64,000 nt of DNA from Leclercia adecarboxylata (GTDB taxonomy: Bacteria; Pseudomonadota; Gammaproteobacteria; Enterobacterales; Enterobacteriaceae), in the NCBI RefSeq assembly GCF_023639785.1, contig NZ_CP098325.1:496001-560000 (forward strand). The letters are read 5' to 3'. Under the pieces are notes generated by a model, which worked only from the letters and a program-made list of their open reading frames with translations, did no database searches and was not told the DNA's origin. Shown piece after piece: positions 768 to 18,380 of this stretch; positions within the stretch are counted from its first letter, which is position 1, and each line of letters starts with the position of its first letter. The translations under genes and the position numbers were made by a program.

Positions 768-1526
768 TCAGGCCGGGTAGCCCAGCGCGCGTGAGAGCTG
801 GCGCCCGGCCTCCTGCAACTGCTCGCGAAAGCGGGCCAGCTCGTCGTCGTTCACGCGGGAGGTTAAGGTGGAGAGGCTCAGGGCGGCAATGACCCGGGAC
901 TCATGGTTACGCACCGGGACCGACACGCAACGCACCCCCTGTTCGTTCTCTTCGCTGTCCAGGGCATAGCCCTGCTCGCGGGTTTGCGCCAGCGCGGCCA
1001 GCAGCGCCTCGCGGGAGGCCAGCGTCGCCGGGGTAAAAGTGGTGTACTGATAGCCCTCAAGGAGGGTGTCCAGCTCGGCGTCGCTCAGCCAGGCGATCAG
1101 CACTTTGCCGATGGCGGTGGCATGCACCGGCAGGCGGCGGCCAATGCGCGAGTAGGCGATGGCCGCCAGCTTGCCTTCAATCTTCTCGATATAGACCCCT
1201 TCGCGCCCGTCCAGAATGCCCAGATGGGTGGTCTGCCCGGTGCGCTCTGACAATTCCGTCAGAAAATGCTTCGCTTTCTGGCGGATATCCATGGTGCTCA
1301 CCACAAAGTGACCGCGTTCAACCAGCTTCATGCCGGGGCGATATTTGCCGTTCTCCGGGTTCTGATCGATATAGCCGTGCAGCTGTAGGGTTTTGAGAAG
1401 CGAGTGAAGGGTGCTTTTACTCAGGCCCATCTGTTTACTGATGTCGGTGATTTTAAGTTCCGTCGCCTGTTCGTTAAACAGATCGAGGATCTGCAGGGCA
1501 CGTTCAACAGATTGAATAATAGGCAT
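768..1526 (-). CDS. xynR: IclR-family regulator XynR (YagI)
   Basis: This 252-residue protein has an N-terminal winged helix-turn-helix (about residues 5-65, including ITDISKQMGLSKSTLHSLL) and an IclR effector domain (about 80-250, with LGILDGREGVYIEKIEG and PVHATAIGKVL). From memory it is nearly identical to E. coli YagI/XynR, which is the same length and regulates xylonate and xyloside catabolism genes. It converges with the beta-xylosidase gene, with four bases between the stop codons. The neighbouring argI mirrors the E. coli arrangement in which yagI lies beside argF. The ATG at 1526 matches the family start MPIIQSVERAL. Confidence 0.93.
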   Translation of the reverse strand: MPIIQSVERALQILDLFNEQATELKITDISKQMGLSKSTLHSLLKTLQLHGYIDQNPENGKYRPGMKLVERGHFVVSTMDIRQKAKHFLTELSERTGQTTHLGILDGREGVYIEKIEGKLAAIAYSRIGRRLPVHATAIGKVLIAWLSDAELDTLLEGYQYTTFTPATLASREALLAALAQTREQGYALDSEENEQGVRCVSVPVRNHESRVIAALSLSTLTSRVNDDELARFREQLQEAGRQLSRALGYPA

Positions 1527-1768
1527 AAGATCGGCATATCCGCGCTGAAATCAGGGCAAAAAAGTACCCTTTTTACGCTGAAAAATCAATCGACACGGGA
1601 AGCGGTCAAACTATTCCTGACGGAGGAATTTGACTTAAGTAAAAGTTTAGACTTATTGACCTTAATAAAAAGGATAGGCTGTGCCTATTACCACATTTTC
1701 ATTGTTCTTTTACACTTATTTACCGTATGGCTTTCCGCTCTTTGCACCGTTTGTTTAAAGGTATTTTG

Positions 1769-2128
1769 ATGACCGCTTCTAAGACATGGATTACTTTAGG
1801 CACTATTGCCAGCCCGGCCACCGGAACCTTATTTTCGAAAATTCTGACTCAGCATAATCATACTTATATTCTCTGGTATAACGGCGACCAGCTCTTTAAA
1901 CCCGGAGATCAGATAAAAGTTTGTCATAACCGTTTACGGGTGAATGACACGCTATGCGATATACATATTATACAGATCGATAAATACAGCCACACCCTGT
2001 GGCGCGTGATGCACAATATGTCCAGCTGCCCCGGCCATCGTGACCCTGAGAGCAAGAGGTGTGAGGTACCGGTAAAATGTATCTTTAAAAAATGCCCTTA
2101 CGGCAAGGAACGGGTAACGACAAAGTAA
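1769..2128 (+). CDS. Small Cys-rich protein of unknown function
   Basis: A 119-residue frame beginning MTASKTWITLGTIASP. An upstream in-frame extension to 1727 looks like leader sequence. It has no membrane segment and no clear signal peptide. The C-terminal third holds a Cys cluster (SSCPGH, KRCEVP, VKCIFKKCP) that could bind metal or form disulphides. Base composition is AT-richer than the flanking xynR and argI genes, which suggests acquisition or weak expression. I do not recognise the family. It stands alone between two oppositely transcribed core genes, so context gives no role. Confidence 0.55.
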   Translation: MTASKTWITLGTIASPATGTLFSKILTQHNHTYILWYNGDQLFKPGDQIKVCHNRLRVNDTLCDIHIIQIDKYSHTLWRVMHNMSSCPGHRDPESKRCEVPVKCIFKKCPYGKERVTTK

Positions 2129-2199
2129 TCATCCGCTGAACTATTTAGTCGGCAAGCAGATAATAAGAGCATTACTCCGAACGGATAATATAAATATCA

Positions 2200-2216
2200 G
2201 GAGGGTCGACCCCTCC
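2200..2216 (-). terminator. Terminator hairpin downstream of argI
   Basis: GGAGGG at 2200-2205 pairs with CCCTCC at 2211-2216 around a TCGAC loop. Read on the minus strand it follows the argI stop by about 30 bases and is trailed by the T-rich stretch TGATATTTATATT. The tail is imperfect, so strength is uncertain. Confidence 0.5.
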
Positions 2217-2244
2217 CGCTATTTAATCTGTTTACTACCAGAGG

Positions 2245-3249
<1,005 letters not shown>

Positions 3250-3277
3250 TTTATCCTCACATGGCAAAGGCCACTTA

Positions 3278-3316
3278 TTGAATTAAAATTCACTTTATAA
3301 GTATTAATATTCACTT
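3278..3316 (-). promoter_or_regulatory. Tandem ARG boxes and promoter of argI
   Basis: Two 18-base ARG boxes lie three bases apart, the normal ArgR hexamer arrangement: TTGAATTAAAATTCACTT at 3278-3295 and AAGTATTAATATTCACTT at 3299-3316. On the minus strand a possible -10 (TATAAA, 3299-3294) lies between them, with a possible -35 (TTGCAA, 3320-3315), though the 15-base spacing is short. The overlap with the promoter implies direct repression by arginine-bound ArgR. Confidence 0.88.
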
Positions 3317-3413
3317 GCAACCCCGTTTCACAAATCTTTCTTACAAAGGTGGAGGCAAACACATCCGTGTGTGAAAATAGAAGTATCTGCCGCACTTTAA
3401 AGAGGAATGAGCC

Positions 3414-3836
3414 ATGGCAAACCCAGAACTGCTGGAAGAACAGCGCGAAGAGACGCGACTGATTATTGAAGAACTGCTGGAAGACGGCAGCGATCCGGAT
3501 GCGCTGTACACCATCGAGCATCATTTCTCTGCGGATGATTTCGAAGCGCTGGAAAAGCTGGCGGTTGAAGCGTTCCGCCTGGGTTACGAAGTGACGGAGC
3601 CGGAAGAGCTGGAAGTGGAAGAGGGCGACACCGTCATCTGCTGCGATATCCTGAGTGAAGGCGCGCTGAAGGCAGAGCTGATCGACGCCCAGGTTGAACA
3701 GCTGATGAACCTCGCCGAGAAGTTTGAAGTGGAATACGACGGCTGGGGCACCTACTTCGAAGATCCGAACGGCGAAGAGGGTGACGAAGACGACGAAGAT
3801 TTCATCGACGAAGATGACGACGGCGTGCGTCACTAA
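3414..3836 (+). CDS. rraB: Ribonuclease E inhibitor RraB
   Basis: A 140-residue, very acidic protein (C-terminal run rich in Glu and Asp) beginning [20 protein letters not shown]. It matches RraB (YjgD), which binds RNase E and modulates mRNA decay in the cytoplasm. Length and the divergent position next to argI match E. coli. The start has a strong ribosome binding site (AGAGGAATGAG). miaE follows 42 bases later across a stem-loop. Confidence 0.95.
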
Positions 3837-3845
3837 GTGTTATTT

Positions 3846-3865
3846 GCGGCAGCTTCGGCTGCCGC
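3846..3865 (+). other. UUCG stem-loop between rraB and miaE
   Basis: GCGGCAGC and GCTGCCGC form a perfect 8-bp stem closed by a TTCG tetraloop. No U-tract follows (TTCAGGAAAA), so it is more likely an RNA stability or processing element than an intrinsic terminator. Confidence 0.6.
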
Positions 3866-3878
3866 TTCAGGAAAAATA

Positions 3879-4637
3879 ATGGATTACCCGCAGATACTCG
3901 CCCCTGTTTTAAACTTCCTCCAGTGTCCGACCCCGCAAGCGTGGATTGATAAAGCCCGCGACCCGGCGAACCTGCCGCTGCTGCTCACCGACCATATGGT
4001 GTGCGAGCTCAAAGCCGCCCAGACCGCGCTGTTATTAGTGCGCAAATACGTCGCCGACGAGAGCGGTGCCGACGCGCTCCTCGAGTGGCTCAAACCCTAC
4101 GAAGCCTTTACCTTCCGCGAAGGCCCGGAACCGGACTTTGTCGCCCTGCACAAACAGATTGGCAAAAGCGTGATGCCGAAGACCGACGATCCCTGGGGTC
4201 AGGCGCTCATCGACAGCATGGTGCTGCTGATTAAAGAGGAGCTGCACCATTTCTGGCAGGTGCGGGAGGCGATGCTGATGCGTAACATTCCCTACGTCAA
4301 AATCACCGCCAGCCGCTACGCTAAAGGGATGCTGAAAGCCGTGCGCACCCACGAGCCGCTGACGCTGATCGACAAGCTGATTTGCGGGGCCTATATCGAA
4401 GCGCGCTCCTGCGAACGCTTCGCCGCGCTGGCGCCATTCCTCGATGAGGATTTGCAGAAGTTTTACCTGTCGCTGCTGCGCTCCGAGGCGCGGCACTATC
4501 AGGACTATTTGCGTCTGGCGCAGCAGGTGAGTGATGACGACATCACCCCACGCGTGAAGCTGTTTGGCGAGGTGGAGGCAGAGCTTATCTTATCGCCCGA
4601 CACCGAGTTCCGCTTCCACAGCGGGGTGCCGGTTTAA
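3879..4637 (+). CDS. miaE: tRNA-(ms2io6A)37 hydroxylase MiaE
   Basis: A 252-residue, ferritin-like di-iron monooxygenase that hydroxylates ms2i6A at position 37 of tRNAs reading UNN codons. Iron ligand motifs are visible in EELHHFWQVREAM (about residue 116) and SEARHYQDYL (about residue 205), with EARSCERF between them. The start at 3879 (MDYPQILAPVL) follows the intercistronic hairpin; the longer frame from 3837 runs through that hairpin and is unlikely. E. coli K-12 lacks miaE while Salmonella has it, which helps place the organism. Confidence 0.93.
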   Translation: MDYPQILAPVLNFLQCPTPQAWIDKARDPANLPLLLTDHMVCELKAAQTALLLVRKYVADESGADALLEWLKPYEAFTFREGPEPDFVALHKQIGKSVMPKTDDPWGQALIDSMVLLIKEELHHFWQVREAMLMRNIPYVKITASRYAKGMLKAVRTHEPLTLIDKLICGAYIEARSCERFAALAPFLDEDLQKFYLSLLRSEARHYQDYLRLAQQVSDDDITPRVKLFGEVEAELILSPDTEFRFHSGVPV

Positions 4638-4653
4638 TAACAAAAGGCAGGGA

Positions 4654-5373
4654 ATGATGAAAAAGGGTTTACGTATCGCCATCGCCGTGGTGGTGGGGAT
4701 GGTGGCAGCAGGCTGGTTTTATCGCGACAACGCGCCCAGCACCGAACAGCAGCTGGATACCGCGCTGAGCAGCATGCCGGTGTGGCAGGTTATCAAGGAG
4801 CAGGAGCCGGCGTTCCGCAAGCAGGTGCAGGACGAGATGCTGGCCCTGCAAAAAGCGGGTAAAAACGAACAGCAGATTATCGACACCCTGCAGCCAAAGA
4901 TTCTGAAGCTGCAGATGGCGCGCCTGCAAACCGCCCCGGACGCCAACGTGGTGGCCTATATGAAGCTCAACATGGAGCAGACCGCCGCCATGCAGAAGGT
5001 GAGCGATGACAGCTGCTTCCGCTTCCTGTACCCGGATGTGAAGGGGGGCGTTAACCCGATGCGTCTGCTGGATAAAGAGCTGATGCAGCGCCGCATGCAG
5101 GCCGACGTCGACATGATGCGTGCCGCCGTCGGGCCGGATAAACACACCGTGACGCCGCAGGAGATCAAGCAGGCCGAAACCGATGTGGTGCCGATTGTCC
5201 AGAAGCTGACGACGAAGTACGGGGACGATATCGAGCTACTGCAGGCCCCGCAAAAAGGGAAGGGCAAAGAGAAGCAGAGCTGCGACCTGGTGCAGGATCT
5301 GTGGAACAACGTGCTGGCCCTGCCGGAACCGAACGCCGCCGGGCTGATACGCTATGCGGTGTCGGACCTGTAA
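4654..5373 (+). CDS. Membrane-anchored periplasmic protein of unknown function
   Basis: A 239-residue protein. After MMKKG there is one hydrophobic segment (about residues 5-22, LRIAIAVVVGMVAAGWFY), then a soluble, mostly helical domain rich in Gln, Lys and Met. Two cysteines (in SDDSCFRF and QSCDLVQDL) could form a disulphide. This suggests a signal anchor with a periplasmic domain. It follows miaE by 16 bases and may be co-transcribed. I do not recognise the family. Tandem ATGs at 4654 and 4657 are both possible starts. Confidence 0.85.
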   Translation: MMKKGLRIAIAVVVGMVAAGWFYRDNAPSTEQQLDTALSSMPVWQVIKEQEPAFRKQVQDEMLALQKAGKNEQQIIDTLQPKILKLQMARLQTAPDANVVAYMKLNMEQTAAMQKVSDDSCFRFLYPDVKGGVNPMRLLDKELMQRRMQADVDMMRAAVGPDKHTVTPQEIKQAETDVVPIVQKLTTKYGDDIELLQAPQKGKGKEKQSCDLVQDLWNNVLALPEPNAAGLIRYAVSDL

Positions 5374-5487
5374 GGGCGGAGTGGGTTACGCTGGTTTTTT
5401 GGACACTTAGCGAAACAACCGTACGTCGCCGCTTGCATGGCGGCGTGCGACAGGTATAATCCACAACGTTTCCGCATCCCCTTCAGT

Positions 5488-5572
5488 GCCGAAGTGGCGA
5501 AATCGGTAGACGCAGTTGATTCAAAATCAACCGTAGAAATACGTGCCGGTTCGAGTCCGGCCTTCGGCACCA
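5488..5572 (+). tRNA. leuX: tRNA-Leu (anticodon CAA), leuX
   Basis: This 85-base class II tRNA has acceptor GCCGAAG pairing with CTTCGGC, an encoded CCA end, the T-arm segment GGTTCGAGTCC, and an anticodon loop TTCAAAA in the stem GTTGA/TCAAC, giving anticodon CAA (reads UUG). It is almost identical to E. coli leuX. The 3' half is a classic attachment site for P4-type integrases, and one starts 198 bases downstream. Confidence 0.97.
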
Positions 5573-5696: not shown

Positions 5697-5752
5697 GCGG
5701 GTACAACTGCGGGTATATCCCGGTTCGATTATGTTTGTACCCACACAGGACC
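5697..5752 (+). other. Probable integrase arm-site region
   Basis: Between leuX and the integrase, short repeats GCGGGTACAA, GCGGGTATA and the inverted TTGTACCCAC lie within 55 bases. Such repeated 8-10-mers next to an att site fit integrase or excisionase arm binding. This is inference from position and repetition only. Confidence 0.4.
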
Positions 5753-5770
5753 CTTGAAAGAATACTTATC

Positions 5771-7018
5771 ATGGCTCTGAGTGATGTGAAGGTTCGTTCG
5801 GCAAAGCCTGAAGCAAAAGCCTACAAACTGACTGACGGCGATGGCATGCTTTTGCTGGTTCACCCCAACGGCTCAAAATACTGGCGGCTTCGTTATCGCT
5901 TTGGTGGTAAAGAGAAGATGCTGGCGCTGGGGAAATACCCCGAAGTCTCACTGGCGGATGCCAGGGCACGCAGGGATGAGGCCCGGAAATTATTAGCTAA
6001 TGGCGTCGATCCCAGTGAGAGCAAGAAAGCCGTTAAGGTAGAGCAGGAGCAAGAGGCGATAACGTTTGAAGTGGTTGCCAGAGACTGGCATGCCAGCAAT
6101 CAGAAATGGTCTGCATCGCATAGTGCTCGTGTATTGAAAAGCCTGGAAGATAATCTCTTTGCTACTATCGGTAAGCGGAATATTGCTGAATTGAAGACGC
6201 GGGATCTGCTTGTCCCTATCAAAGCGGTGGAGTCATCCGGGCGTCTTGAAGTCGCCGCCCGTTTACAGCAGCGCACTACCGCGATTATGCGCTTTGCTGT
6301 GCAGAGCGGATTAATCGACTACAACCCCGCGCAAGAGATTGCCGGTGCGGTTGCTACGGCGAAAAGAAAGCACCGTGCGGCATTAGTACTTAACCGCATT
6401 CCCGCATTACTTCATCGAATTGATCACTACTCCGGTAGGCCGTTAACCCGGTTAGCTGTTGAACTCATCTTGTTGGTTTTCATCCGTTCAAGCGAGCTAC
6501 GCTTTGCTCGCTGGTCAGAAGTGGATTTCCAAACTGCTATGTGGACGATTCCGGGCGAGCGTGAGCCACTGGAAGGAGTCAAGCATTCTCAGCGTGGTTC
6601 AAAGATGCGGACACCTCATCTTGTTCCCTTATCGCGTCAGGCCTTAGCTATTCTGGAAAAGATCAAATGCATGAACGGGAATCGAGAGCTGATTTTCGTA
6701 GGCGATCACGATCCCCGTAAGCCGATGAGTGAGAATACGGTGAACAAGGCTCTTCGAGTGATGGGCTATGACACAAAAACGGAAGTTTGTGGGCATGGTT
6801 TCAGGACCATGGCTTGTAGTTCACTGATAGAATCGGGGTTGTGGTCGAGGGATGCAGTAGAACGGCAGATGAGCCATCAGGAACGTAACTCGGTGCGTGC
6901 GGCTTACATCCATAAGGCGGAACATCTTGGGGAGCGTAGGTTGATGTTACAGTGGTGGGCGGATTATCTGGATGCTAATCGGGAGAAGATTGTAAGTCCG
7001 TTTGAATTTGGAAAGTAG
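5771..7018 (+). CDS. P4-type tyrosine integrase
   Basis: A 415-residue site-specific recombinase that would catalyse insertion and excision at leuX. The N-terminal DUF4102-like arm-binding domain (about 1-90) starts MALSDVKVRSAKP and includes TDGDGMLLLVHPNGSKYW. The core-binding domain covers about 95-195 and the catalytic domain about 205-395, with RSSELRFARW (first Arg), HGFR (His-x-x-Arg) and the MSHQERNSVRAAYIH region carrying the nucleophile Tyr. The start at 5771 matches family members. All catalytic motifs look intact. It faces away from the tRNA into the restriction cluster, the usual layout of a leuX island. Confidence 0.94.
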   Translation: MALSDVKVRSAKPEAKAYKLTDGDGMLLLVHPNGSKYWRLRYRFGGKEKMLALGKYPEVSLADARARRDEARKLLANGVDPSESKKAVKVEQEQEAITFEVVARDWHASNQKWSASHSARVLKSLEDNLFATIGKRNIAELKTRDLLVPIKAVESSGRLEVAARLQQRTTAIMRFAVQSGLIDYNPAQEIAGAVATAKRKHRAALVLNRIPALLHRIDHYSGRPLTRLAVELILLVFIRSSELRFARWSEVDFQTAMWTIPGEREPLEGVKHSQRGSKMRTPHLVPLSRQALAILEKIKCMNGNRELIFVGDHDPRKPMSENTVNKALRVMGYDTKTEVCGHGFRTMACSSLIESGLWSRDAVERQMSHQERNSVRAAYIHKAEHLGERRLMLQWWADYLDANREKIVSPFEFGK

Positions 7019-7235: not shown

Positions 7236-7265
7236 CTTATCCTGATGATGGAAGAGATATATAAC

Positions 7266-8888
7266 ATGAAACATATCCATTTAATTAATTCACTGTCTTT
7301 AAATAATGCGGAAAAGTTCACTGAGAAAGCGACAGGCAAGTACTATACTGATGAAAAAATTGCATTTTTGATGATAGAGAAATTATTACCATTAATAAAT
7401 GCAACTGGTAAAAAAAATTATAATATTGCGGATCCATTTTCAGGAGACGGGCGACTTATCACATTGCTTATTAAACAATGGATATTAAATGGCTTTCCTG
7501 ATGTGGAATGGAATGTTTATCTATTTGATATAGAACATGCTGGCCTTGTTCATGCTCAAAGTGAGTTAGCTGAACTTAAATTAGCTGGTGCAAATATTAA
7601 AGTTACTGTAAAAAATATTGATGTTTTTTATGAGTTTGAAAACTATATCGATTACTTTGATTGTGTTATTACTAACCCACCTTGGGAGAATATAAAACCA
7701 GATTCCAGGGAACTCAATCTATTTGAGCCATCTATTAAATCGAAATATATCGAGTCGCTTCGAGAGTTTGATGATTATTTGTCAAAAGTTTTACCATATT
7801 CACAACCGAAGCGCAAATTTGCTGGTTGGGGGACTAATCTTTCACGTGTTGGTGCAGAGCTTAGCTTAGAAATATGTAACAAAAATGGTATATTAGCTAT
7901 TGTTATGCCTGCATCTTTTTTCGCTGATGAACAGTCTTTTACTTTGCGTCAAAAGTTCTTTAACACTGGAAGGCTTGATTTCATAAACTATTATCCAGCG
8001 GAAGCAAAGTTATTCAATGGTGCTGATGTGTCTTCATGTTCTTTTATTTTAATTAAAGGCGACTCTTTTAATAAGGACATGCAGCTTAGTGTATATGATA
8101 AAAAATTAAATATTAATTCATTCGGGTGTTTTGATTTATCTAGTATAGATACTCAACATCTTAGTATTCCAATATCTCAAGGTGTTCATGCAATCCATTT
8201 ATTAAAGAAGCTGCAAGAGGAATACTCAACTTGGAATAGCTTAGAAAAAAATGGAGAAATATGGGCGGGAAGAGAAATCGATGAGACAGGGAGTAGCAAT
8301 TGGACAAAAAAAAATGGGGATGGATACCTATTTGTTAAAGGGAAAATGATCGGAAGATACAACTTTGACATTAGTTATAATTTAAAGATAACTAAAAGAA
8401 TTGATAAGGTTCCATCCAGTTCTAATTTTAAAAGAATTGCATGGCGTGATATTTCTCGTCCAAGTCAAAAGAGAAGAGTAATCGCAACAGTAATTCCTCC
8501 TGATTCATTAGCAGGGAATTCACTGGGGGTGGTCTATTATCAAAATGGATCACAGGATTCACTTTTTAGTTTATTGGGAATAATAAACTCCCTTTGTTTT
8601 GAATTTCAATTAAGAAGCTTTTTAGCCACTGGCCATGTTTCATTGTCAGCTTTAAGAAAGACTGCGATACCGTCTGAAAAAATATTATCGCAACATACTG
8701 AGTTAAAACAGCTGGTAATCTCTTGCATGAATGGGTGCTGTGATGCTGAACTGAAAATTGAGGCTTATATAGCCAAAAAAATTTACAAATTGAATTTGAA
8801 TGAATTTGATAAACTTTTGTCTTCATTTGATAAGATTGAGTTAGCAGAAAAAGAAAATTTACTGAGGATGTTTCAACATTATGGCTAA
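7266..8888 (+). CDS. Type II N6-adenine DNA methyltransferase (Eco31I-type M1)
   Basis: A 540-residue m6A methyltransferase of the gamma order. Motif X is near residues 25-38 (KYYTDEKIAFLMIE), the SAM-binding motif I is DPFSGDGRL (56-64), and the catalytic motif IV is NPPW (137-140). A C-terminal target-recognition region covers roughly 300-540. The start at 7266 has GGAAGAG nine bases upstream. It overlaps the m5C methyltransferase gene by eight bases. In the Alw26I/Eco31I/Esp3I group the two strands of an asymmetric site are methylated by one m6A and one m5C activity; separate genes, as here, match the Eco31I layout. The AT-rich composition contrasts with the host and indicates transfer. 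Confidence 0.92.
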   Translation: MKHIHLINSLSLNNAEKFTEKATGKYYTDEKIAFLMIEKLLPLINATGKKNYNIADPFSGDGRLITLLIKQWILNGFPDVEWNVYLFDIEHAGLVHAQSELAELKLAGANIKVTVKNIDVFYEFENYIDYFDCVITNPPWENIKPDSRELNLFEPSIKSKYIESLREFDDYLSKVLPYSQPKRKFAGWGTNLSRVGAELSLEICNKNGILAIVMPASFFADEQSFTLRQKFFNTGRLDFINYYPAEAKLFNGADVSSCSFILIKGDSFNKDMQLSVYDKKLNINSFGCFDLSSIDTQHLSIPISQGVHAIHLLKKLQEEYSTWNSLEKNGEIWAGREIDETGSSNWTKKNGDGYLFVKGKMIGRYNFDISYNLKITKRIDKVPSSSNFKRIAWRDISRPSQKRRVIATVIPPDSLAGNSLGVVYYQNGSQDSLFSLLGIINSLCFEFQLRSFLATGHVSLSALRKTAIPSEKILSQHTELKQLVISCMNGCCDAELKIEAYIAKKIYKLNLNEFDKLLSSFDKIELAEKENLLRMFQHYG

Positions 8889-10071
8889 AAATGAAGCATT
8901 AATGATTCCCAATCATAAGGCTGCAAAGCTAAGTGAACTGGATATGATGATTGTTAATTCGGTACCGCCAGGCGGTAACTGGAAAAACATTCCTTTAGAT
9001 GTACCATCTAAAAGAATAGAGCAAATTCGGGAAAGCTATGCACAAGGAAAAGGAAGCCGTTCAACCTACTACGGTAGATTACTTCCAGATATGCCTGCAT
9101 ATACTATTAATACTTATTTTAACCGGCCTGGAAATGGTTGTCATATCCACTATGAGCAAAATCGTGTCCTATCCCAGAGAGAAGCAGCAAGATTGCAATC
9201 ATTCCCAGATGATTTTATTTTCTGTGGAGGGCAAACAGCAGTTAATACCCAAATTGGTAATGCCGTACCTCCCTTTTTGGCTTTTTTGATTGCGAAAGAA
9301 ATAGAGAGAGCCATAGGTAATACTGGTTACTATGTCGATTTGTTTTCTGGGGCAGGGGGGCTTGGCTTAGGATTCAAATGGGCTGGATGGACTCCATTAT
9401 TAGCTAATGATATTGAGGAAAAATATCTACAAACATATTCAAGAAATGTTCATGAAGAAGTTATTTGCGGAAGTATTTCTGATGATGAAAATTTCTCAAA
9501 AATAATAACTAAATTATCAGGAATCAAAAAAACATATTCTGATAAACAATTGTGGATACTGGGGGGGCCTCCATGTCAAGGATTTTCTACGGCAGGAAAT
9601 GCAAGAACAATGGATGATCCAAGAAACTCACTCTTCATGCATTATAAATCCCTCTTGGATCAGATAAAACCAAACGGTTTTATTTTTGAAAATGTTGCAG
9701 GTCTGTTGAATATGGAAAAAGGCAAGGTGTTTGAAAGGGTTAAAGAAGAACTATCATCAACCATGAAAACTATGAATGGGTGGGTATTAAACTCTGAACA
9801 TTATGCAATTCCTCAACGCCGAAAAAGAGTTATATTAGTAGGTTCAAACGATCCTTTATTTTCAATCGAACCTCCGAAAAAAATAACAGAGCAAAAGGAT
9901 TCTTGGGTTTCTGTTAAACATGCATTATCTGACCTTCCTCCTTTACTGCATGGAGAAGATGGAATTGGTAAATACTATATCCATCAACCTGAAAATGACT
10001 ATCAACTGTTCATGAGAGGTTATATCACTGCTTCAGAGTATTATAACAGGAATGTAAAGCCCTCTTTTTAA
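8881..10071 (+). CDS. Circularly permuted cytosine-5 DNA methyltransferase (Eco31I-type M2)
   Basis: A 396-residue m5C methyltransferase whose motif order is rotated. Motif IX (RVLSQREAARLQSFPDDF, 95-112) and motif X (QIGNAVPPFLA, 124-134) come first. They are followed by motif I (DLFSGAGG, 153-160), motif IV with the catalytic Cys (GGPPCQG, C232), motif VI (ENV, 270-272) and motif VIII (QRRKRV, 312-317). The break falls in the target-recognition region: the C-terminus ends after YQLFMRGYITASEYY, and the N-terminus resumes at the PPGGNWKNIP segment. All catalytic motifs are present, so it should be active. The stop codon lies inside the following terminator. Confidence 0.95.
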   Translation: MAKNEALMIPNHKAAKLSELDMMIVNSVPPGGNWKNIPLDVPSKRIEQIRESYAQGKGSRSTYYGRLLPDMPAYTINTYFNRPGNGCHIHYEQNRVLSQREAARLQSFPDDFIFCGGQTAVNTQIGNAVPPFLAFLIAKEIERAIGNTGYYVDLFSGAGGLGLGFKWAGWTPLLANDIEEKYLQTYSRNVHEEVICGSISDDENFSKIITKLSGIKKTYSDKQLWILGGPPCQGFSTAGNARTMDDPRNSLFMHYKSLLDQIKPNGFIFENVAGLLNMEKGKVFERVKEELSSTMKTMNGWVLNSEHYAIPQRRKRVILVGSNDPLFSIEPPKKITEQKDSWVSVKHALSDLPPLLHGEDGIGKYYIHQPENDYQLFMRGYITASEYYNRNVKPSF

Positions 10072-10087
10072 GAGGGCTTTTTTTTAT
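10056..10087. terminator. Bidirectional terminator between methyltransferase and nuclease genes
   Basis: AAAGCCCTCTT (10056-10066) pairs with AAGAGGGCTTT (10070-10080) around three T residues. T-tracts follow on the plus strand and, by symmetry, on the minus strand. It separates the convergent m5C methyltransferase and endonuclease genes. The methyltransferase stop codon (10069-10071) sits in the loop/stem junction. Confidence 0.9.
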
Positions 10088-11823
10088 TCTATTACCTCAT
10101 CAGGGCTTGAGCGAACATAACGATCACTTGTCCAAGATAATTCTAATTCCTTTCCTATTTCACTCATCCCTGACATTAGGTTTTTTAATATTATATTGAA
10201 TTCTTGTTGATTTTTTGTAAGTATTTCTTGTAGCTCCAAAATGATGTCTTTGAACTCGTTTTCTGAATTTGAATTCTCGGACATTATTCCGGCTATTCTT
10301 TCATCTAAGCTGTTTGTAACTGTGCTTAATGATTGTAGGTTATCCAAGGCTTCAGTAAAGTAATTATCAGACAATTCATTTGATACTATAAATGCATTCC
10401 TACTTTCTTTTCTATGATAATCATTCAATGAAGCAAATGCTATTCTTATTCTTCTTGCTTTTTGCACAATTGTATATTTTGTTTCACGTTTTAATCTTTT
10501 TATTGCTTTAAAATAAGTTACATGCTTTGAAATATATAACCCTTCAAATTCTGGAGTATAATTAGCTACTTCAAGATGTAAAAGACTCGCAAGGAAAGTA
10601 TAATAACCTTGATCAAGTATTTTTTTAAGGAGGTTCATGTACGTATGTCTGTTATCACGTAGTATTTTACTTAGTCTTAAGGCTTTTTCAGTATCATCTA
10701 CAGAGTGTTTCAGACGATTCCATACCTCCTCTGCGAACCATGAAATAACTGTATGCCCTTCATTCTCAGCTTCTAATAAAGAGGTTATATCGCTTAAATA
10801 CATTCGATTATTTTTGGCACTATTACATGATTTACAAAGTAGTTGAAATTGAGGACGATGGGAAAATCCTAGTGATATCGGGCCAATATGGTCTGCTTGG
10901 CAAGGCATAGGGTGTAACCCTCCATTCCCTGTATTCAAGCATTCTTCTTTAATAAAAATATCATTTGTTCTAACTTGGCCCATTAGCCTATCAGCAGCAA
11001 CCCAATCACCGTCAACCCAATATTCGAAAACTCTTCGATCAGTAACATAGGATTTAAGATTTTCTTTAGTTCTTCCTTTATCAGCAGTAGAGCGACAACA
11101 GCGGTTAAATGAATGGAATCCATCAAAACGGTCTGGAGGGTTTGCCATAGCTCCAGGGCTTAGCATGCGAGATTCTTGAGGTATGTATTGTTCTTTCAGA
11201 TACTCAATCCATGCTTCGAGATTGTTTGGTAGTTCAGGCGTTATGATAAATTTTGTAGAAAATAAATATGATAAGTCTGAGTATATTTTTTCACCAAAAC
11301 GATCATCCAAGCGTGTTAAAAGATCGATTATGTGTTCGTTTTGAGATAGCTCAAAAGTCTCATCGATATAATTAAGTTTTTTAACCCGAGAAAAGAAATG
11401 TTCGTTGGGATAAGAGTAAGACAATTCCATTTCTTTACCGCATTTTTTGCAGGGTTTAACTCCAAATGGATGAATTATTTTAGCTGTTTTACTAATCCAT
11501 GCATTTTCAGTATCGGGATTTATCCCGATGCTTTTTGCTTTATTTTTCCACCATTCATAGCGTCGTTGATGAGTGTGCTTAAATTTTCCTGATGCCCTAT
11601 TTGATGGGGCTTCCCATTGAATCTCACCTTTTTCCCCAAAAGGGTCTGGCATTCCAGCATAATTTGGATGCATAACTATTTTTTGGGAATACGCTAAAAA
11701 TGCCGCATCACCATATTTAGGTTTTACATTTTTTTTCATTATATTTTGGTCTGAGTGGTTACTTTTGTAGTCGCTAATTATTTTATCAAAATCCGGAACA
11801 ACAACAATTTTTGCAATTTTCAT
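10084..11823 (-). CDS. Type IIS restriction endonuclease, Eco31I family (HNH)
   Basis: A 579-residue protein with one HNH active site: D311 and H312 (QADHIGP) and N334 (CKSCNSAKNN). CxxC pairs at C125/C128 and C330/C333 are potential zinc ligands. Published work on Eco31I, as I recall it, names D311, H312, N334, K337, R340, D345, R264 and D273. All eight residues occur here at the same numbers, so this is Eco31I or a close relative. Eco31I recognises GGTCTC and cuts one and five bases downstream. The adjacent m6A and m5C methyltransferases complete the system. The start at 11823 has GGAGATGTT before ATG. The C-terminal 200 residues are helical and Asn/Glu-rich. Confidence 0.93.
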   Translation of the reverse strand: MKIAKIVVVPDFDKIISDYKSNHSDQNIMKKNVKPKYGDAAFLAYSQKIVMHPNYAGMPDPFGEKGEIQWEAPSNRASGKFKHTHQRRYEWWKNKAKSIGINPDTENAWISKTAKIIHPFGVKPCKKCGKEMELSYSYPNEHFFSRVKKLNYIDETFELSQNEHIIDLLTRLDDRFGEKIYSDLSYLFSTKFIITPELPNNLEAWIEYLKEQYIPQESRMLSPGAMANPPDRFDGFHSFNRCCRSTADKGRTKENLKSYVTDRRVFEYWVDGDWVAADRLMGQVRTNDIFIKEECLNTGNGGLHPMPCQADHIGPISLGFSHRPQFQLLCKSCNSAKNNRMYLSDITSLLEAENEGHTVISWFAEEVWNRLKHSVDDTEKALRLSKILRDNRHTYMNLLKKILDQGYYTFLASLLHLEVANYTPEFEGLYISKHVTYFKAIKRLKRETKYTIVQKARRIRIAFASLNDYHRKESRNAFIVSNELSDNYFTEALDNLQSLSTVTNSLDERIAGIMSENSNSENEFKDIILELQEILTKNQQEFNIILKNLMSGMSEIGKELELSWTSDRYVRSSPDEVIE

Positions 11824-11927: not shown

Positions 11928-13226
11928 TTAGCTCCTAAGCGATATACTGAACACATCACTCGCCCACATCATCTTCTCCCCACGCTTTGCTGTAATCCGG
12001 TATGGCGCAACCCATAATTTTAAAGTGTCCGAGAAAGCAAAGTGCTGCGGTATCGGTTGGCTAAAGTCATCATGCGCAGGGTAAATCAGATACATTTCGC
12101 CGCTCCCATCAAGATATGTTTGGCCGTAGGCAAACATTTGATAAAAGTCGGATTGCGCAAGTCCATATAGTGATTTTTTTTGCTCGTTACTGTTCACCAG
12201 CTTCCATTTCGTGTCCATCACCATTTTGGTTTGAATCGGTTGCCGAGATTGAATCAGCAAGTCTGGGCGAAGCTTAAAGCAATCTTTAAGTCCATGCTTT
12301 ACCAAAGAATAAGTTGCTGCTTGAGGAAAAACTTTTAGGTGAGAAGGTAATTCGTAGGGTAGGGTCTGTGCCACAAAGGATTCAAATACCGCTTCCATAG
12401 GAAACAAAAGTGATATCGCTTTGGTGTTTCCTTGTAATGCACTTGGGCTCATTCCTCTCAGGATCAACTGCGCCCAAGCCATTGGCTCGCTGTAATGAGT
12501 CATACCACGCTCAATGCGTAAGCTGTTCATATCGCTCTCAACATCCCTACTAAGTTGAATACCGTCAAAAGCAAAGCGTAGTTCGTAAAGCCAGCGTTGA
12601 TTCTCTGATGACAGCTTCAGACTAAGTAACTTATCCAGTGTGGAGTGTAAGAGCCGATTGGCAGCACAATCAGGCATATACTCATCATAATCGACACAAA
12701 ACTTATGGCGATTTACCGCGTTATGTCGTAGCTGTGCAGAGAGCATCAGCTTGCCCTTCATAAAAGCCAGATTACCTTGCTCGCTCACATAGTCGGAGCG
12801 TAAACCTTGTTTAAGCAATTGGCTGACGCTTTGCAAAAATTGGCTGATAAAAATCTCGAGCAAAGGCATGCGTTGTGCCTGAAGAGTGGCCTGCTGGGTT
12901 TGAATATGTCGAAACCCAGGCAGGTGACTTAGCATCGTAATGAATGTTTCTCGCGCACTCGCAGCCGTGAGGTTTTTACCAATCTTGGGCAGTATCTCAA
13001 GCTGGATACCGTGAGGCGTAGAAAGCATCCCTGCGTAGTTTTGCACCTGCAGCAATTTGAAACCTGAACGAGAGGTGAGTTTGAGAAACTGGCTTCCTTG
13101 ATCACTTGTTAGGCTAAGTGTTTCTAAATAATCAAAGACCTGTTGAGGCACCAGCTTTGCGCCAACTGAAGCCGCTTTTCCACTCCCCAGCAGGTCATAT
13201 TCAAAAACTGAGATAACTTCACCCAT
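11928..13226 (-). CDS. mcrC: McrC, nuclease subunit of the McrBC type IV restriction enzyme
   Basis: A 432-residue McrC-family protein. The N-terminal part (about 1-200) binds McrB. The C-terminal PD-(D/E)xK nuclease is visible as LRPDLLI (about residue 320) followed by VMDTKWKL (about 345). McrC stimulates McrB GTPase activity and supplies DNA cleavage at methylated sites. The start overlaps the mcrB stop by eight bases, consistent with translational coupling. It is the last gene of a leftward three-gene type IV operon. Confidence 0.92.
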   Translation of the reverse strand: MGEVISVFEYDLLGSGKAASVGAKLVPQQVFDYLETLSLTSDQGSQFLKLTSRSGFKLLQVQNYAGMLSTPHGIQLEILPKIGKNLTAASARETFITMLSHLPGFRHIQTQQATLQAQRMPLLEIFISQFLQSVSQLLKQGLRSDYVSEQGNLAFMKGKLMLSAQLRHNAVNRHKFCVDYDEYMPDCAANRLLHSTLDKLLSLKLSSENQRWLYELRFAFDGIQLSRDVESDMNSLRIERGMTHYSEPMAWAQLILRGMSPSALQGNTKAISLLFPMEAVFESFVAQTLPYELPSHLKVFPQAATYSLVKHGLKDCFKLRPDLLIQSRQPIQTKMVMDTKWKLVNSNEQKKSLYGLAQSDFYQMFAYGQTYLDGSGEMYLIYPAHDDFSQPIPQHFAFSDTLKLWVAPYRITAKRGEKMMWASDVFSISLRS

Positions 13227-15276
13227 GGTTTACGGCCTGCTCATCAGGAGTGGTCTGCTGTGGCTGATAAATTGAACGATAAGCCTGTGGCATATTCCAG
13301 ACCTCTTGATCAAATGCTTCGAGCTCGTAAGCTGTCGATTGCTGATCATGGTGTCGTAAACCATGGTTGTTACCAAAAAGCGTATCGAGATCGTCGGTTT
13401 TCTCAATTACGAATTGCAGGCTGTCGTCTTGCTTTTGGTTGTCTGCCAGCACCAACCTGATCTTGTTCCAGTCATCGAAAAAGTATTCCTGTAAAAGCGG
13501 AATGATCTTTTTCTGGAATGCGATCTTCAATTGTTTAAACGCAGCTTCTTCATCACCGGCATCGAGTGCATTTTTTACCGGCATAAAGAACGCATGCCCC
13601 AGTGTATGTTCGCGATCGTAAAGTGCTTCGATGCGGCTGTTGAGTTTCTCTAACAACGACTCGAGCTCTATGCCTTTCACCTTAGCTCCACTCAGTAAAG
13701 AGAGATCTGGCATCATTTCGACAAAGTCAAAGCGACGGCGCAAAGCCGTGTCCATCAGAGCTAAAGAACGGTCCGCTGTATTCATGGCTCCGATGATGTC
13801 GACATTGGCGGGGACGCTGAAGTGATCACCGCTATAAGACAGTTGCAGGCTCATTGCATTAGACATACCCGCACGCTTGTCTACTTCAATGAGTGAGATC
13901 AGTTCCCCAAAGATCTTGGAGATGTTGCCGCGATTGATCTCATCAATGAAAATGGCGTAGCGATGTCCTGGATCGGCGTTGGCACGCTGACATAGGCGTA
14001 TAAAGATTCCCGGCTCAATGGGATAAGAGATATTGCCACTTTCGTCAGAGCGAGCGCGTATACCTTCAATAAATTCTTCATAGCCGTAAGATTGGTGGAA
14101 CGTAACCACTGCAAAACGCTGTATGGCTTCGGCAGATTTTGGACCACGTTTAAGTTCGGCGTAGAGCTCTACCAAATCCTCCACTTGCTCGAGCTGTGAA
14201 TCAACTATCAACCATTCGCTGTTATCTGTTTTGTTAAATACGGCAGGCTCACGCCGATTCTTATAATCAACGGTTAACGACTCGGGAACTGTATAGGATT
14301 GCAAAGCTGCCCAGGCAGTATTCGATAGGTTGCCATTACGACCGTTTAATAATGCCTTACGTTGAAACCACATATGTTCAATAATTTGCCGAACTTTGGC
14401 TCGTTTCCCAAGATCGAGCAGCACCAGCGTTATAACCTGCATCCAGTTCAACGATTCAAGGCGAGAATCCAGCCAGGCATCACGATCAGCAGGAACTGCA
14501 TGAGAAGTGTACTCTTTCATTTTTTGCTGCAACGTGAAGGTCTTGCCAGTGCCTGGGGGGCCAAAGAAGATCACGTTAGTTGGTGAATGTGGAATAGTCT
14601 TGTTCTCGATGGGCTCACTGCTGGCTACTTTCTCTTGCTTCTGTTCATTATCGCGCTTACGGAGCAATTCATAGATATGCCAGATAGCCATATTCACGTA
14701 ATAAGGATCTGTGTTAGGGGATTGGGCGTGTATGGCTTGTTTCAATTCATAGTTTTTCTGTAACCAATTTCCGGTCAGTACCAAACCGAGATGGAAGTGT
14801 TGATTTAGGAATTCTGCTGCTTTATTGAAAGCATTCTCATCCACAGTACTGGTGTATTTCTCTGGTGAAAATGCGGCAAAGACACGGTTTCTTAAGCTTC
14901 GATACATGCGCTTAAGCTGTCCGGTTTCTTTGGCCTGCTGCAGCGCATTGCCTACGTATTGGTAGGTAGCTTCATTCGGTTGTTGACGAACACGTTCGGT
15001 GAGTTCTCTAAGCAATGGGAGGCTTTGCTGATATTCTGCTAATGATGGAACGCCCTGACGAATACTGGCAATACCGTTGTCACGTTCGTACCACAGTCGT
15101 TTAACTAAATTATCTGTTTCAGGGTCTGTAAAGGTTGAGATTTGCTGTAACTGTGCTGTAAATTCACGGTAACGCTGATTCCAATTGGAAGAAGCGTATT
15201 CTTTATCTTTAACGAGGGTCTTAATCAATTCAATGATGGTCAGCTTGCCAGCTTCTACATTCTCTACGAGATCCAC
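13219..15276 (-). CDS. mcrB: McrB-family AAA+ GTPase, modified-DNA recognition subunit
   Basis: A 685-residue protein. A divergent N-terminal domain (about 1-220) would read the DNA modification and does not obviously resemble the E. coli McrB domain. It is followed by an AAA+ GTPase motor with Walker A GPPGTGKT (about residue 239), Walker B IFIDEINRGN (about 444) and the McrB signature MNTADRS (about 500). The GTG start at 15276 has AAAGGA eight bases upstream. It lies 52 bases after the SBD-HNH gene and is coupled to mcrC. Specificity for R-m5C, as in E. coli, cannot be assumed given the different N-terminus. Confidence 0.92.
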   Translation of the reverse strand: MDLVENVEAGKLTIIELIKTLVKDKEYASSNWNQRYREFTAQLQQISTFTDPETDNLVKRLWYERDNGIASIRQGVPSLAEYQQSLPLLRELTERVRQQPNEATYQYVGNALQQAKETGQLKRMYRSLRNRVFAAFSPEKYTSTVDENAFNKAAEFLNQHFHLGLVLTGNWLQKNYELKQAIHAQSPNTDPYYVNMAIWHIYELLRKRDNEQKQEKVASSEPIENKTIPHSPTNVIFFGPPGTGKTFTLQQKMKEYTSHAVPADRDAWLDSRLESLNWMQVITLVLLDLGKRAKVRQIIEHMWFQRKALLNGRNGNLSNTAWAALQSYTVPESLTVDYKNRREPAVFNKTDNSEWLIVDSQLEQVEDLVELYAELKRGPKSAEAIQRFAVVTFHQSYGYEEFIEGIRARSDESGNISYPIEPGIFIRLCQRANADPGHRYAIFIDEINRGNISKIFGELISLIEVDKRAGMSNAMSLQLSYSGDHFSVPANVDIIGAMNTADRSLALMDTALRRRFDFVEMMPDLSLLSGAKVKGIELESLLEKLNSRIEALYDREHTLGHAFFMPVKNALDAGDEEAAFKQLKIAFQKKIIPLLQEYFFDDWNKIRLVLADNQKQDDSLQFVIEKTDDLDTLFGNNHGLRHHDQQSTAYELEAFDQEVWNMPQAYRSIYQPQQTTPDEQAVNHG

Positions 15277-15328: not shown

Positions 15329-16207
15329 TCAGACATTCATTTTAAATACCTCTTGCCGATGCCACTCTACAAACACCTCCTGGGGATGATCCTCTTTCTC
15401 AAATGGCAACGCTATCTGCTTCCCTTTAAAATCCCAAAACAAACTCCGAACAATCCCCGTTCCATTAACCGCTGGTGAAACCAACACCCGCATATCCTTA
15501 TCCAACCCAATAGACCCTTTATCAAATGCCTTATGGTGTATCGCACATAGCGCCAGACCGTTAGGGACTTCGCACGGCCCGCCGTTCTGCTTCCATTTGA
15601 TATGCGCAGCTTCAAGCGCAACAGAAGTATGATCGTGTCGCATATTGAATCCACAGATCGCGCATTGGTAGTTATAAGCACGTAACACCTGCTGACGGAA
15701 CTGCGGATCGCGAACCTTGCGGATCTGCCTGATATCAAACCCCATCTCGTCAGCAATCTCTTCCTGGATGCTTTCTGGAAAGTGGGCTTCCAGAATCTGC
15801 TGCGCCAGCGAACCGATAAGGTTTTTGTTTTTACTCAGCAGGGCAAAGTGTTGCTCATCAAACCCACCCGCGACGTTGTGCTTTACCAGTTCTCCAGCGG
15901 GTGGTTGCTTGCTGCTACCCGTCGTTGAGCAAAACTCATCATTCTGTAGCTCCCAGAATCCATCACCTTTAAGCCGCCAGAAAGGCATGTCGGGGCGATA
16001 TTGCGCACGCTGTGGGCCAAAACGTTCCAGCAGGCTATGTAGCTGATCGCAGATTTCCGTACCGTAATTGAACAGGCGAGCGTGTCCCTGCTGATAATTC
16101 GCCAGCACATAAAGGAGCAATAATGGTTTATGCGGAGCACGCTGATCGCCTTTGCGCCAGATGGTGATATCGGTAATTGCTTGTTCGAGAGTTTTGCTGG
16201 AAGCCAT
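15329..16207 (-). CDS. SBD-HNH endonuclease, phosphorothioate-dependent type IV family
   Basis: A 292-residue protein. The N-terminal domain (about 1-150) contains RKGDQRAPHKPLLLLYVLA, the signature of the ScoMcrA-like sulphur-binding domain that recognises phosphorothioated DNA. The C-terminal HNH domain (about 190-260) has CAICGF, EAAHIKWK, PNGLALCAIHHKAFD and a terminal Asp-Lys-Gly segment. Family members cut DNA carrying the sulphur modification made by Dnd systems. I start at ATG 16207; the frame can be extended to a TTG at 16249. It is the first gene of the operon with mcrB and mcrC. No dnd genes are in the window, so host DNA may be unmodified. Confidence 0.85.
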   Translation of the reverse strand: MASSKTLEQAITDITIWRKGDQRAPHKPLLLLYVLANYQQGHARLFNYGTEICDQLHSLLERFGPQRAQYRPDMPFWRLKGDGFWELQNDEFCSTTGSSKQPPAGELVKHNVAGGFDEQHFALLSKNKNLIGSLAQQILEAHFPESIQEEIADEMGFDIRQIRKVRDPQFRQQVLRAYNYQCAICGFNMRHDHTSVALEAAHIKWKQNGGPCEVPNGLALCAIHHKAFDKGSIGLDKDMRVLVSPAVNGTGIVRSLFWDFKGKQIALPFEKEDHPQEVFVEWHRQEVFKMNV

Positions 16208-16709
16208 CGCGTTACGGAAGAAGGTAAATAATTGCGATGATGCTCGCAAAACCGCACCCGATCAACCTACCAGCTTCTCACAAGTCACAAAAAGGTACCC
16301 ATCGCTGCCCTTGTCTCAGCCTTTACTTCGAGAATGAGCTTATCGGTCTATGATGAATGCAGCGATGAAGGCCCCGCCTTAACGCATCGCTCAGCCCACG
16401 ATAAATCGAGGATTACCATTAGCACCTATCCAAAATCAGCAAACCTTCTGACCTATTCAGGAGATACCTGAAGCAGTCAGGAACCAATAATAGCAATTTA
16501 AATTTACGCGACGTTTTACCCCTTCCAAAGGCACCACTAAAAAAAATTAACATTAAACGTCAAACCCCTAATTACCTCACATCCATTCCAGCGCATTTTA
16601 TATACGCACCCCCCCCCCACATCCCCCCAACTCCGTTTATTAGTAGTTGCCTGACCTATACAAAACCCTATCATTCTGCCGATAAACAATCTCAATCCAG
16701 GTAATAAAG
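16208..16709. other. Divergent intergenic region with a poly-C tract
   Basis: This 502-base, gene-free region separates the leftward type IV operon from the rightward zinc-ribbon gene and probably holds both promoters. It has a homopolymer of ten C residues at 16609-16618 followed by CACATCCCCCC. No leuX-like attachment repeat, tRNA or convincing small frame is visible. Confidence 0.6.
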
Positions 16710-18380
16710 ATGAAAGACGCGTGGCTGGAAACGTGCTCGACCACCATCCAAAACTTCGTGGAACGCTCTACGAGGCTACAGCCAGATAAACTTGACCTGG
16801 AATTAGTCGAAAATATTGATTTCGACTACCAGATTAACTTAAGTCTGCATTTTCGTGTTGAGACGACAGATCACACTCAGGTGGGGAGAGTCACCGCCGG
16901 GAACGGCACCCGCGTTTTTACCAGTACTTTCCAGTACGCCGAGGCGCTCCAGGAGGAGTCCAGCGCGGTTTTATCCCGCCAGGCCACGCTTCGTGAAGCA
17001 CAGGCCCTGGTGCTTTCCCACCCTTACGGTGCGCTTCAGAAAGAGCAAGAAATCTACTCACATCCCACGCGCCTCTGTTTAACTGAAAACTGCGCTAATT
17101 GTCATGGACGCGGACAGGTCAACTGCTCCTGGTGCTATGGTTCTGGTCGCGTGAGCTGCACCACCTGTGGCGGAAGCGGGCAGGTCCTGGAACAGCGTAG
17201 CCATTTCGATCACTACACCAATCAGTATCGCACAGAGAGCCATTACCGGATGTGCTCGACCTGCACCGGGGGTAAAGTGCATTGCAACCACTGTAGCGGT
17301 TCAGGCAACCAGCGCTGTTCTCCCTGCGAGGGAACAGGCGAAACAACCCGCGTTACCCGGCTGGCCAGTATTGCCGTGCCTCGATACCAGCTGATCTATC
17401 ATCGTGAAGATGTCCCGACGTTCATTAAGGATGGCCTCTACAAAGCGGGCATCCCGGAACTGGCGGGTTATGGCGCCGTTGAGCTGGCAGATTCCAGTAT
17501 TGACGAGGGACTGCGGAACGTTAACTTCATCTACAATGCCAGCGTGCCCTTTGCCAGATTTAAGAGCCAGCTGCGCCAGGCTCAGGTGGCGGAACAGCCT
17601 GTTAACTGGATTGTTTACGGTCGACGTCCGCAGATACTTGATGCCGGACACGTCGTTGAGTTGATGTTAAAAAACGATCTCAATGAGCTTGTCCATCGCA
17701 CCACCAGAGGGAGCTTGCTCAACCCTCTTGTTGCGGCGTTCAGCCGTAAAACGGTGGCCACCTTTATGGAGTCAGAAGCCCATCAGGAGATGCTGGATGC
17801 GAACCGCAAGGGGAAATCCGGGGAGATGCTCCGCGAGGCGATGAATCGTGGGGTCACCACCACCTATATTGATGAAGCCCTGACCAGCCTGAACGCCATC
17901 ACCCGGGCTGTGCAAAACTGGTCGGTGGTGAAGTGGGCCATCTTCAGCGCGGTCATTATCTATCTGTTTATGCCGCTCTACACCGCTTATGGCAACATCT
18001 GGTTCAACGACATGGCGTCCGGACGGGTCTACCTTACGCCGTTCCTGCGCTGGGATAATCAGCATAATTTACTCGCTTCTCTGGAGATACTGGCGCTTTA
18101 CTGCGGCCTGTTTATCGCCATCGCTGCCGTTGTTATCCCTTTCCTGGGGTATGTATGGCGCAGGGGATGGGTTCGCTGGCGAATGGGCCAGCATCTGGCG
18201 AGCTGGGCGGTGAATAAGAAGATTTTACGCAGCGGCTGGTTTATGAGTTTTGTTCTGACGTGCCTGCTCACTGCTTGCCTGCTACTGTTTTTCCCGATCT
18301 GGGTGACGAATGAGGGGGCGTTATTCGGGCTATACCCGTTAACCGATCTCATCCTCTGGGTTGTGCAGTTTATTCAGTAA
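16710..18380 (+). CDS. DnaJ-type zinc-ribbon membrane protein of unknown function
   Basis: A 556-residue protein. An N-terminal soluble region (1-125) precedes six CxxC motifs, several as CxxCxGxG (about 128-208: CANCHGRG, CSWCYGSG, CTTCGGSG, CSTCTGG, CNHCSGSG, CSPCEGTG), which resemble the DnaJ zinc-binding domain. There is no J domain. A middle region covers 210-400. Three or four membrane segments follow near 406-425, 450-478 and 508-535, with a hydrophobic C-terminus. The layout suggests an inner-membrane protein with a cytoplasmic zinc-bearing head. It sits between a restriction operon and symE, so a defence or stress role is possible but unproven. AGGTAATAAAG precedes the ATG. Confidence 0.88.
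   Translation: MKDAWLETCSTTIQNFVERSTRLQPDKLDLELVENIDFDYQINLSLHFRVETTDHTQVGRVTAGNGTRVFTSTFQYAEALQEESSAVLSRQATLREAQALVLSHPYGALQKEQEIYSHPTRLCLTENCANCHGRGQVNCSWCYGSGRVSCTTCGGSGQVLEQRSHFDHYTNQYRTESHYRMCSTCTGGKVHCNHCSGSGNQRCSPCEGTGETTRVTRLASIAVPRYQLIYHREDVPTFIKDGLYKAGIPELAGYGAVELADSSIDEGLRNVNFIYNASVPFARFKSQLRQAQVAEQPVNWIVYGRRPQILDAGHVVELMLKNDLNELVHRTTRGSLLNPLVAAFSRKTVATFMESEAHQEMLDANRKGKSGEMLREAMNRGVTTTYIDEALTSLNAITRAVQNWSVVKWAIFSAVIIYLFMPLYTAYGNIWFNDMASGRVYLTPFLRWDNQHNLLASLEILALYCGLFIAIAAVVIPFLGYVWRRGWVRWRMGQHLASWAVNKKILRSGWFMSFVLTCLLTACLLLFFPIWVTNEGALFGLYPLTDLILWVVQFIQ

Follow-up and report, generated by a model that had tools for sequence, protein, structure and literature searches.

Positions 7266 to 11823 of the 64,000-nucleotide stretch of Leclercia adecarboxylata DNA analysed here (contig NZ_CP098325.1, positions 496,001 to 560,000; hereafter the window) hold what we consider, with a probability of about 0.93, to be a complete orthologue, kept by selection, of the type IIS restriction-modification system Eco31I, lying in an integrase-bearing island that adjoins leuX. 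The three genes, all complete and correctly delimited in a preliminary description of this DNA, encode an N6-methyladenine (m6A) DNA methyltransferase, M1 (7266..8888, + strand, 540 amino acids), a 5-methylcytosine (m5C) DNA methyltransferase, M2 (8881..10071, + strand, 396 amino acids), and a type IIS HNH restriction endonuclease, R (10084..11823, - strand, 579 amino acids). Gene content and order, orthology, family membership, catalytic residues, the permuted architecture of M2 and purifying selection were all observed directly.

Orthology to Eco31I

All five genes recur in Escherichia coli EC958 (NZ_HG941718) in identical order, M1-M2-R-McrC-McrB, and its M1, M2 and R also measure 540, 396 and 579 amino acids. 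Amino acid identity between the window and EC958 is 82.4% for M1, 90.4% for M2, 82.2% for R, 87.9% for McrC and 93.4% for McrB, and the corresponding ratios of nonsynonymous to synonymous substitution rates (dN/dS) are 0.117, 0.089, 0.178, 0.127 and 0.104; purifying selection acts on all five genes. Published work is cited here by PubMed Central identifier. EC958 M1 and M2 have been described as 100% identical to M1 and M2.Eco31I and as encoded on GI-leuX (PMC4659465; we paired its locus tags with the EC958 genes by gene order and not by tag). The same source gives 100% of the chromosomal GAGACC adenines of EC958 as methylated, the m5C being predicted and not measured, and GGTCTC/GAGACC methylation has been reported by nanopore for E. 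coli ATCC 25922 (PMC12679398). Taken together, the orthology to EC958 and the methylation published for that strain mark the system as Eco31I by orthology and make it very likely that the host system recognises GGTCTC. The orthology is likewise the basis on which we predict which bases are methylated, where R cuts and that the system is active.

We regard it as quite improbable that these intact-looking genes form a decayed or silent system that has lost restriction or modification. The open reading frames (ORFs) are full-length and have homologues of family length, the dN/dS values against EC958 are low (0.09-0.18), all the named catalytic residues are kept, and relatives in Enterobacter and Buttiauxella stand at 94-100% identity.

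Endonuclease R

In line with the preliminary description, R matches the Alw26I/Eco31I/Esp3I family far beyond chance (PF09665, 618.9 bits versus 23.1, E=1.3e-185; TIGR02986, 635 bits versus a cut-off of 443.85). The residues that it had singled out, R264, D273, D311, H312, N334, K337, R340 and D345, are found at exactly those numbers, and EC958 R has these eight, together with eight cysteines, under the same numbers. Their active-site roles are those that we take to follow from Eco31I mutagenesis, the numbering of which we assume to be the same in print; no literature pairing Eco31I with a residue name was found among the matches listed. In an alignment of 80 R sequences (those of the window and EC958 with 78 homologues at 46-97% identity, drawn from the 120 listed out of 1975 found), R264, D311, H312, N334, K337 and R340 did not vary, and neither did C125, C128, C242, C243, C295, C308, C330 and C333; D273 and D345 were conserved in at least 90%. 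The pattern was unchanged when the EC958 row was removed (79 rows), and this conservation map points out invariant residues worth testing.

An AlphaFold2 model of R built with 79 sequences (mean pLDDT 86.8) placed strands at 309-312 and 326-329 and a helix at 331-337, the beta-beta-alpha succession that an HNH site should show, and the Pfam HNH model covered residues 293-340 slightly below its cut-off (20.5 versus 21.4). With its residues present, conserved and arranged in strand-strand-helix order in the model, R has a single HNH active site, and Eco31I is listed among the HNH restriction enzymes (PMC2816704). For the proposed zinc site, the preliminary description had pointed to two CxxC pairs. 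Both pairs are there (125-128 and 330-333, the only ones in R), but C295/C308/C330/C333 are the likelier ligands of the HNH zinc, while C125/C128, far off in sequence, would be part of another site. No solved structure in the PDB copy searched matched R convincingly by sequence (best E 0.79 alone and 0.45 as a profile), which leaves the BsaI/Eco31I endonuclease family with no solved relative by sequence in that copy, and fold searches with R gave no convincing match either.

Methyltransferases

The M1 ORF extends over 7245-8888 on the + strand and may start at 7245 or 7266. The ATG at 7266 is the likelier start because it follows GGAAGAG with a 9-nt spacer and agrees with homologues of 540 amino acids, one of which begins MKHIHL. 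M1, which has an NPPW motif, scored 595.1 bits versus a cut-off of 353.5 with TIGR02987 and thus belongs to the adenine methyltransferases of the Alw26I/Eco31I/Esp3I family. Unlike R and M1, which pass the models of that family, M2 passes the general m5C model (PF00145, E=7.1e-60, in two stretches; TIGR00675, 175.7 bits versus a cut-off of 100.65). The PADLOC models labelled M1 and M2 as type II methyltransferases and R as a type II restriction endonuclease.

In M2 the motif GNAV (126) comes before FSGAG (155), followed by PCQ (231-233, with C232 as the catalytic cysteine), ENV (270) and QRRKR (312). By alignment, the N-terminal part of M.HaeIII corresponds to residues 152-326 and the C-terminal end of DNMT1 to residues 7-145, and this split order means that M2 is circularly permuted, motifs IX and X preceding I-VIII. 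Natural circular permutation has been described for M.Alw26I, M2.Eco31I, M.Esp3I and M2.BsaI (PMC5944983). M2.Eco31I is given as 396 amino acids, or 389 in its second-ATG form (PMC10810934), and M2 of the window not only has the former length but also has its second methionine at M8, giving the same 389-residue form. Within the part of M2 before motif I, which should hold the target-recognition region, residues 31-120 show 93-100% identity to EC958 M2 per 30-residue block; residues 211-420 of R are 90-100% identical to EC958 R.

By analogy with Eco31I, each asymmetric site would be marked on both strands, with m6A placed by M1 in GAGACC (bottom strand) and m5C placed by M2 in GGTCTC (top strand). 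R, acting through its single HNH site, would bind unmodified GGTCTC on incoming DNA and cut just downstream of it (1/5), which is the offset of Eco31I. The offset listed for BsaI is also 1/5 (PMC10810934), and the published m5C position is GGT-mC-TC (PMC4659465).

Recognition sequence and GGTCTC content

GGTCTC is absent from the window cassette and from those of nine relatives. In the cassettes of six clades, analysed with a Markov model of order 2, it was found 0 times versus 7.8 expected, which ranked it 1 of 2080 hexamers, whereas CGTCTC (10 versus 6.3), AGTCTC (10 versus 8.8) and TGTCTC (7 versus 9.4) were present. The figures were 0 versus 9.3 (rank 3) with 8 cassettes and 0 versus 11.6 (rank 1) with 10, the L018 cassette being partial; in the distant cassettes L020, L021, L022 and L024 they were 1 versus 4.6 (rank 120). 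Synonymous-codon shuffles over seven clades led to a similar picture, with GGTCTC at 0 versus 8.3 expected in the cassettes and CGTCTC, AGTCTC and TGTCTC at 12 versus 11.4, 13 versus 13.5 and 8 versus 13.8. This self-site test was conceived after the counts had been seen, and it left out L003, L007, L009, L013 and L017 as near duplicates, L001 as the window itself, L014 as a weak match and L023 as a broken copy on a plasmid record.

These counts bear on whether a system of the same family and mechanism might have another specificity of the GTCTC group, either CGTCTC (as Esp3I or BsmBI) or GTCTC (as Alw26I or BsmAI). Such a specificity would be compatible with family models that are named for all three specificities and with the 18% of positions at which R differs from EC958 R, and the CGTCTC and GTCTC enzyme sequences lay outside the comparison. 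We nevertheless judge it highly improbable. The closest characterised relatives are M1 and M2.Eco31I, at 82 and 90% amino acid identity (PMC4659465), and in the seven clades CGTCTC and AGTCTC occur about as often as expected while GGTCTC is missing; moreover, M1 of the window itself contains one CGTCTC site (GAGACG at 7444).

Several observations weigh against an Eco31I orthologue with GGTCTC specificity. The differences between R and EC958 R (18% of residues) are found mostly in residues 1-30, in 181-210 and after 421. The flanks of the cassettes are mildly depleted in GGTCTC too (15 versus 24.9 expected), another hexamer, GGTCCA, is also depleted (2 versus 9.6 in cassettes and 20 versus 33.8 in flanks), the cassette of L022, a distant relative, contains one GGTCTC, and the three Enterobacteriaceae cassettes taken alone are uninformative (0 versus 1.2 expected). 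The host genome contains 1507 GGTCTC sites in 4.74 Mb, and these 318 per Mb are within the 191-371 per Mb of four congeners without a PF09665 match (genome sizes behind the per-Mb figures of other genomes are rounded). Because of the shortages in the flanks and of GGTCCA, we take the absence of GGTCTC from the cassettes as support and not as proof. On balance, the system is an ordinary Eco31I orthologue and probably functional.

Avoidance of GGTCTC by the host genome was considered as a test of specificity and rejected as uninformative, the host value falling inside the range of its congeners; full methylation would remove the pressure to avoid the site. In genome G140, whose R is 98% identical, GGTCTC occurs at 77 per Mb, the lowest value in its genus (99, 123 and 157 in three congeners without R), and the GGTCTC/CGTCTC ratio is 0.28, compared with 0.61-0.96 in the five other genomes counted, its congeners not among them; this is one case. 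In the window, positions 1-25835 contain no GGTCTC/GAGACC (8.2 expected at the genome rate), an observation made post hoc, and the remaining 38 kb contain 18.

Distribution and relatives

The Eco31I-type system is common in E. coli and not rare. The restriction-modification query was matched in 633 of 5426 complete genomes; in 590, at least 80% of the cassette is found at a single place, with nucleotide identities of 80-90% throughout. An 8-kb query from M1 to McrB was held to at least 80% in 589 of the 5426 and matched to some extent in 1014, and in 15 of 40 rows taken evenly down this ranking only the McrBC part was matched. Since E. coli genomes are clonally related, these counts do not represent independent events. 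Outside E. coli, PF09665 is rare; it was found in 3 of 392 sampled genomes of the family (two over the cut-off, one of them the window's own genome) and in 1 of 398 sampled genomes of the phylum, again the window's own.

Searching by sequence led to seven named genome loci. The closest are those of Enterobacter sp. ENT03 (L003; R 98%, M2 99%, M1 100% and integrase 96% identical) and Buttiauxella sp. A111 (L002; R 94%, M2 96%, M1 95% and integrase 88%), both with the same McrBC neighbours.

The preliminary description took the methyltransferases of Alw26I and Esp3I to be fused and read the separate genes of the window as the mark of an Eco31I layout. In print, the methyltransferases of Alw26I and Esp3I go under the single names M.Alw26I and M.Esp3I (PMC5944983). 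The genes of the window are indeed separate (540 and 396 amino acids), but this is not diagnostic of Eco31I: the L004 and L016 loci, with R 63 and 65% identical, have a fused 954-residue methyltransferase beside R, whereas the more distant L005, L006, L008 and L019 (R 42-61%) have separate genes. The state of fusion thus does not track closeness to Eco31I and is unfit to predict specificity in this family. In L004 and L016 the M1-like parts, fused to the m5C domain, are only 33-36% identical although R is 63-65%, so that rates of evolution or of exchange differ between the modules of this family.

Contigs classed as viral in IMG/VR also carry these genes, with all three parts in L016, L017 and L019 and R alone in the short stretch L018. 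The identities of L017 equal those of the loci from Comamonadaceae (L004) and Lysobacteraceae (L007), so some viral-classed cassettes may be host islands or integrated elements. Two E. coli records filed as plasmids, CP054241.1 and CP088711.1 (L023), match R at 80% (3 pieces) and 74% (5 pieces), and neither match coincides with a listed gene; all 675 places matched by the cassette query in E. coli were chromosomal.

The island and its neighbouring genes

A tRNA-Leu gene with anticodon CAA, which we take to be leuX by the E. coli naming, was identified by ARAGORN at 5488..5572 (+ strand) and is the presumed integration site. It is followed by a tyrosine-recombinase integrase (5735..7018, + strand; PF13356, PF22022 and PF00589). 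The two together support the tRNA island proposed in the preliminary description, and the system is collinear with that on GI-leuX of EC958. No second exact copy of the tRNA 3' end (at least 13 nt) was found within the 64-kb window, and the far end of the island is therefore not placed. The upstream flank (1-5480) matches E. coli genomes in part, mostly at 60-90%.

M1 and M2 are on the same strand and overlap by 8 bp, and R converges on M2. Across the M2 stop, a hairpin (perfect 11-bp stem, 3-nt loop) and the T run after it (10056..10085, + strand, from reading the sequence) make up the probable terminator of M1-M2, which possibly also serves R.

Next to R are an McrC-like subunit (11928..13226, - strand; PF10117) and an McrB-like AAA+ subunit (13219..15276, - strand). 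A phosphorothioated-DNA-binding HNH restriction endonuclease (15329..16249, - strand; NF045808, 448.3 bits versus a cut-off of 180; HNH_2) makes three restriction systems in a row, and EC958 has an incomplete annotated gene for a phosphorothioate-type nuclease about 24 kb from its McrB. Beyond it, an ORF of 556 amino acids (16710-18380) gave a DnaJ cysteine-repeat match below the cut-off and matched no other family, and 18446-20359 contains a SymE-family gene, a small ORF of no family, a Bacterial toxin 44 domain protein and an Hcp protein of type VI secretion, a group with the look of an Hcp-effector(-immunity) set.

The adjacency of the Eco31I genes and McrBC has been described in EC958, where the pair was called the same type IV system as that of E. 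coli K-12, with the same RmC target expected (PMC4659465). In the window, the pair falls far short of the K-12 models (147.9 versus 637 bits for the McrB-like protein with PRK11331, and 99.8 versus 338 bits for the McrC-like protein with PRK09736). Compared with EcoKMcrBC of K-12, the McrB-like protein matches its counterpart in the Walker region (234-262) and, at 40% identity over 235 columns, in residues 383-602; the McrC-like protein is about 24-27% identical. In contrast, residues 1-232 of McrB had no BLASTP match in K-12 McrB (best E 8.4), and no match was seen for residues 263-382. Residues 1-232 matched no family above the cut-off in the Pfam copy used, although homologues carry the newer PF28529, a family that this copy did not give, and the AlphaFold model (pLDDT 37) was too poor for the fold to be judged. 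Since McrC and McrB are 88 and 93% identical to those of EC958, the mismatch with K-12 applies to both pairs, and the sequences compared here do not support the same RmC target for the EC958 pair.

McrB has a different history from that of the restriction-modification genes. Among the loci compared, it is nearest to EC958 (92-93%, versus 87% for Enterobacter and 89% for Buttiauxella), whereas M1, M2 and R are nearest to Enterobacter and Buttiauxella (94-100%), R being 98 and 94% identical to these and 82% to EC958. McrC leans to the R pattern (Enterobacter 91%, Buttiauxella 89%, EC958 87-88%). Neighbouring modules of the island thus seem to have been exchanged separately.

The McrBC pairing was found in the window, EC958, E. 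coli Nissle 1917, L002 and L003; L013 has McrC only, its stretch ending there, and tblastn (E <= 1e-10) gave no McrBC hit in L004-L008, for which the stretches fetched are in some cases short. It is doubtful, though conceivable, that the Eco31I genes and the McrBC-like pair form a maintained two-layer defence unit in which the McrB-like protein would read a different mark or structure and catch phages that escape Eco31I. As the m5C of GGT-mC-TC follows a T and is thus outside the canonical RmC context of McrBC, even an enzyme reading RmC could coexist with M2, and a modification-dependent enzyme might be tolerated one gene away. Such a unit would also fit with the persistence of the pairing in E. 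coli, Enterobacter, Buttiauxella and the host of the window despite independent exchange of McrB.

Comparison with known systems

The leuX-island system of E. coli EC958 (EcoMI) has the permuted m5C enzyme and the HNH residues in common with the window. Unlike in EC958, the integrase, M1 and the defence block of the window come directly after the tRNA gene, and the gene of the phosphorothioate-dependent nuclease follows McrB. E. coli Nissle 1917 also has the Eco31I system, its McrB gene being broken by an insertion sequence. The McrBC-like pair, presented in print as the K-12 type IV system (PMC4659465), fails the K-12 McrBC models. Alw26I and Esp3I are akin to the window system by the names of the protein family models. 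BsaI (GGTCTC) shares the predicted specificity, and M2.BsaI is likewise circularly permuted (PMC5944983). The known and common Eco31I locus is thus extended to another genus of the Enterobacteriaceae, and the sites used with BsaI in Golden Gate assembly are predicted to be modified in this host.

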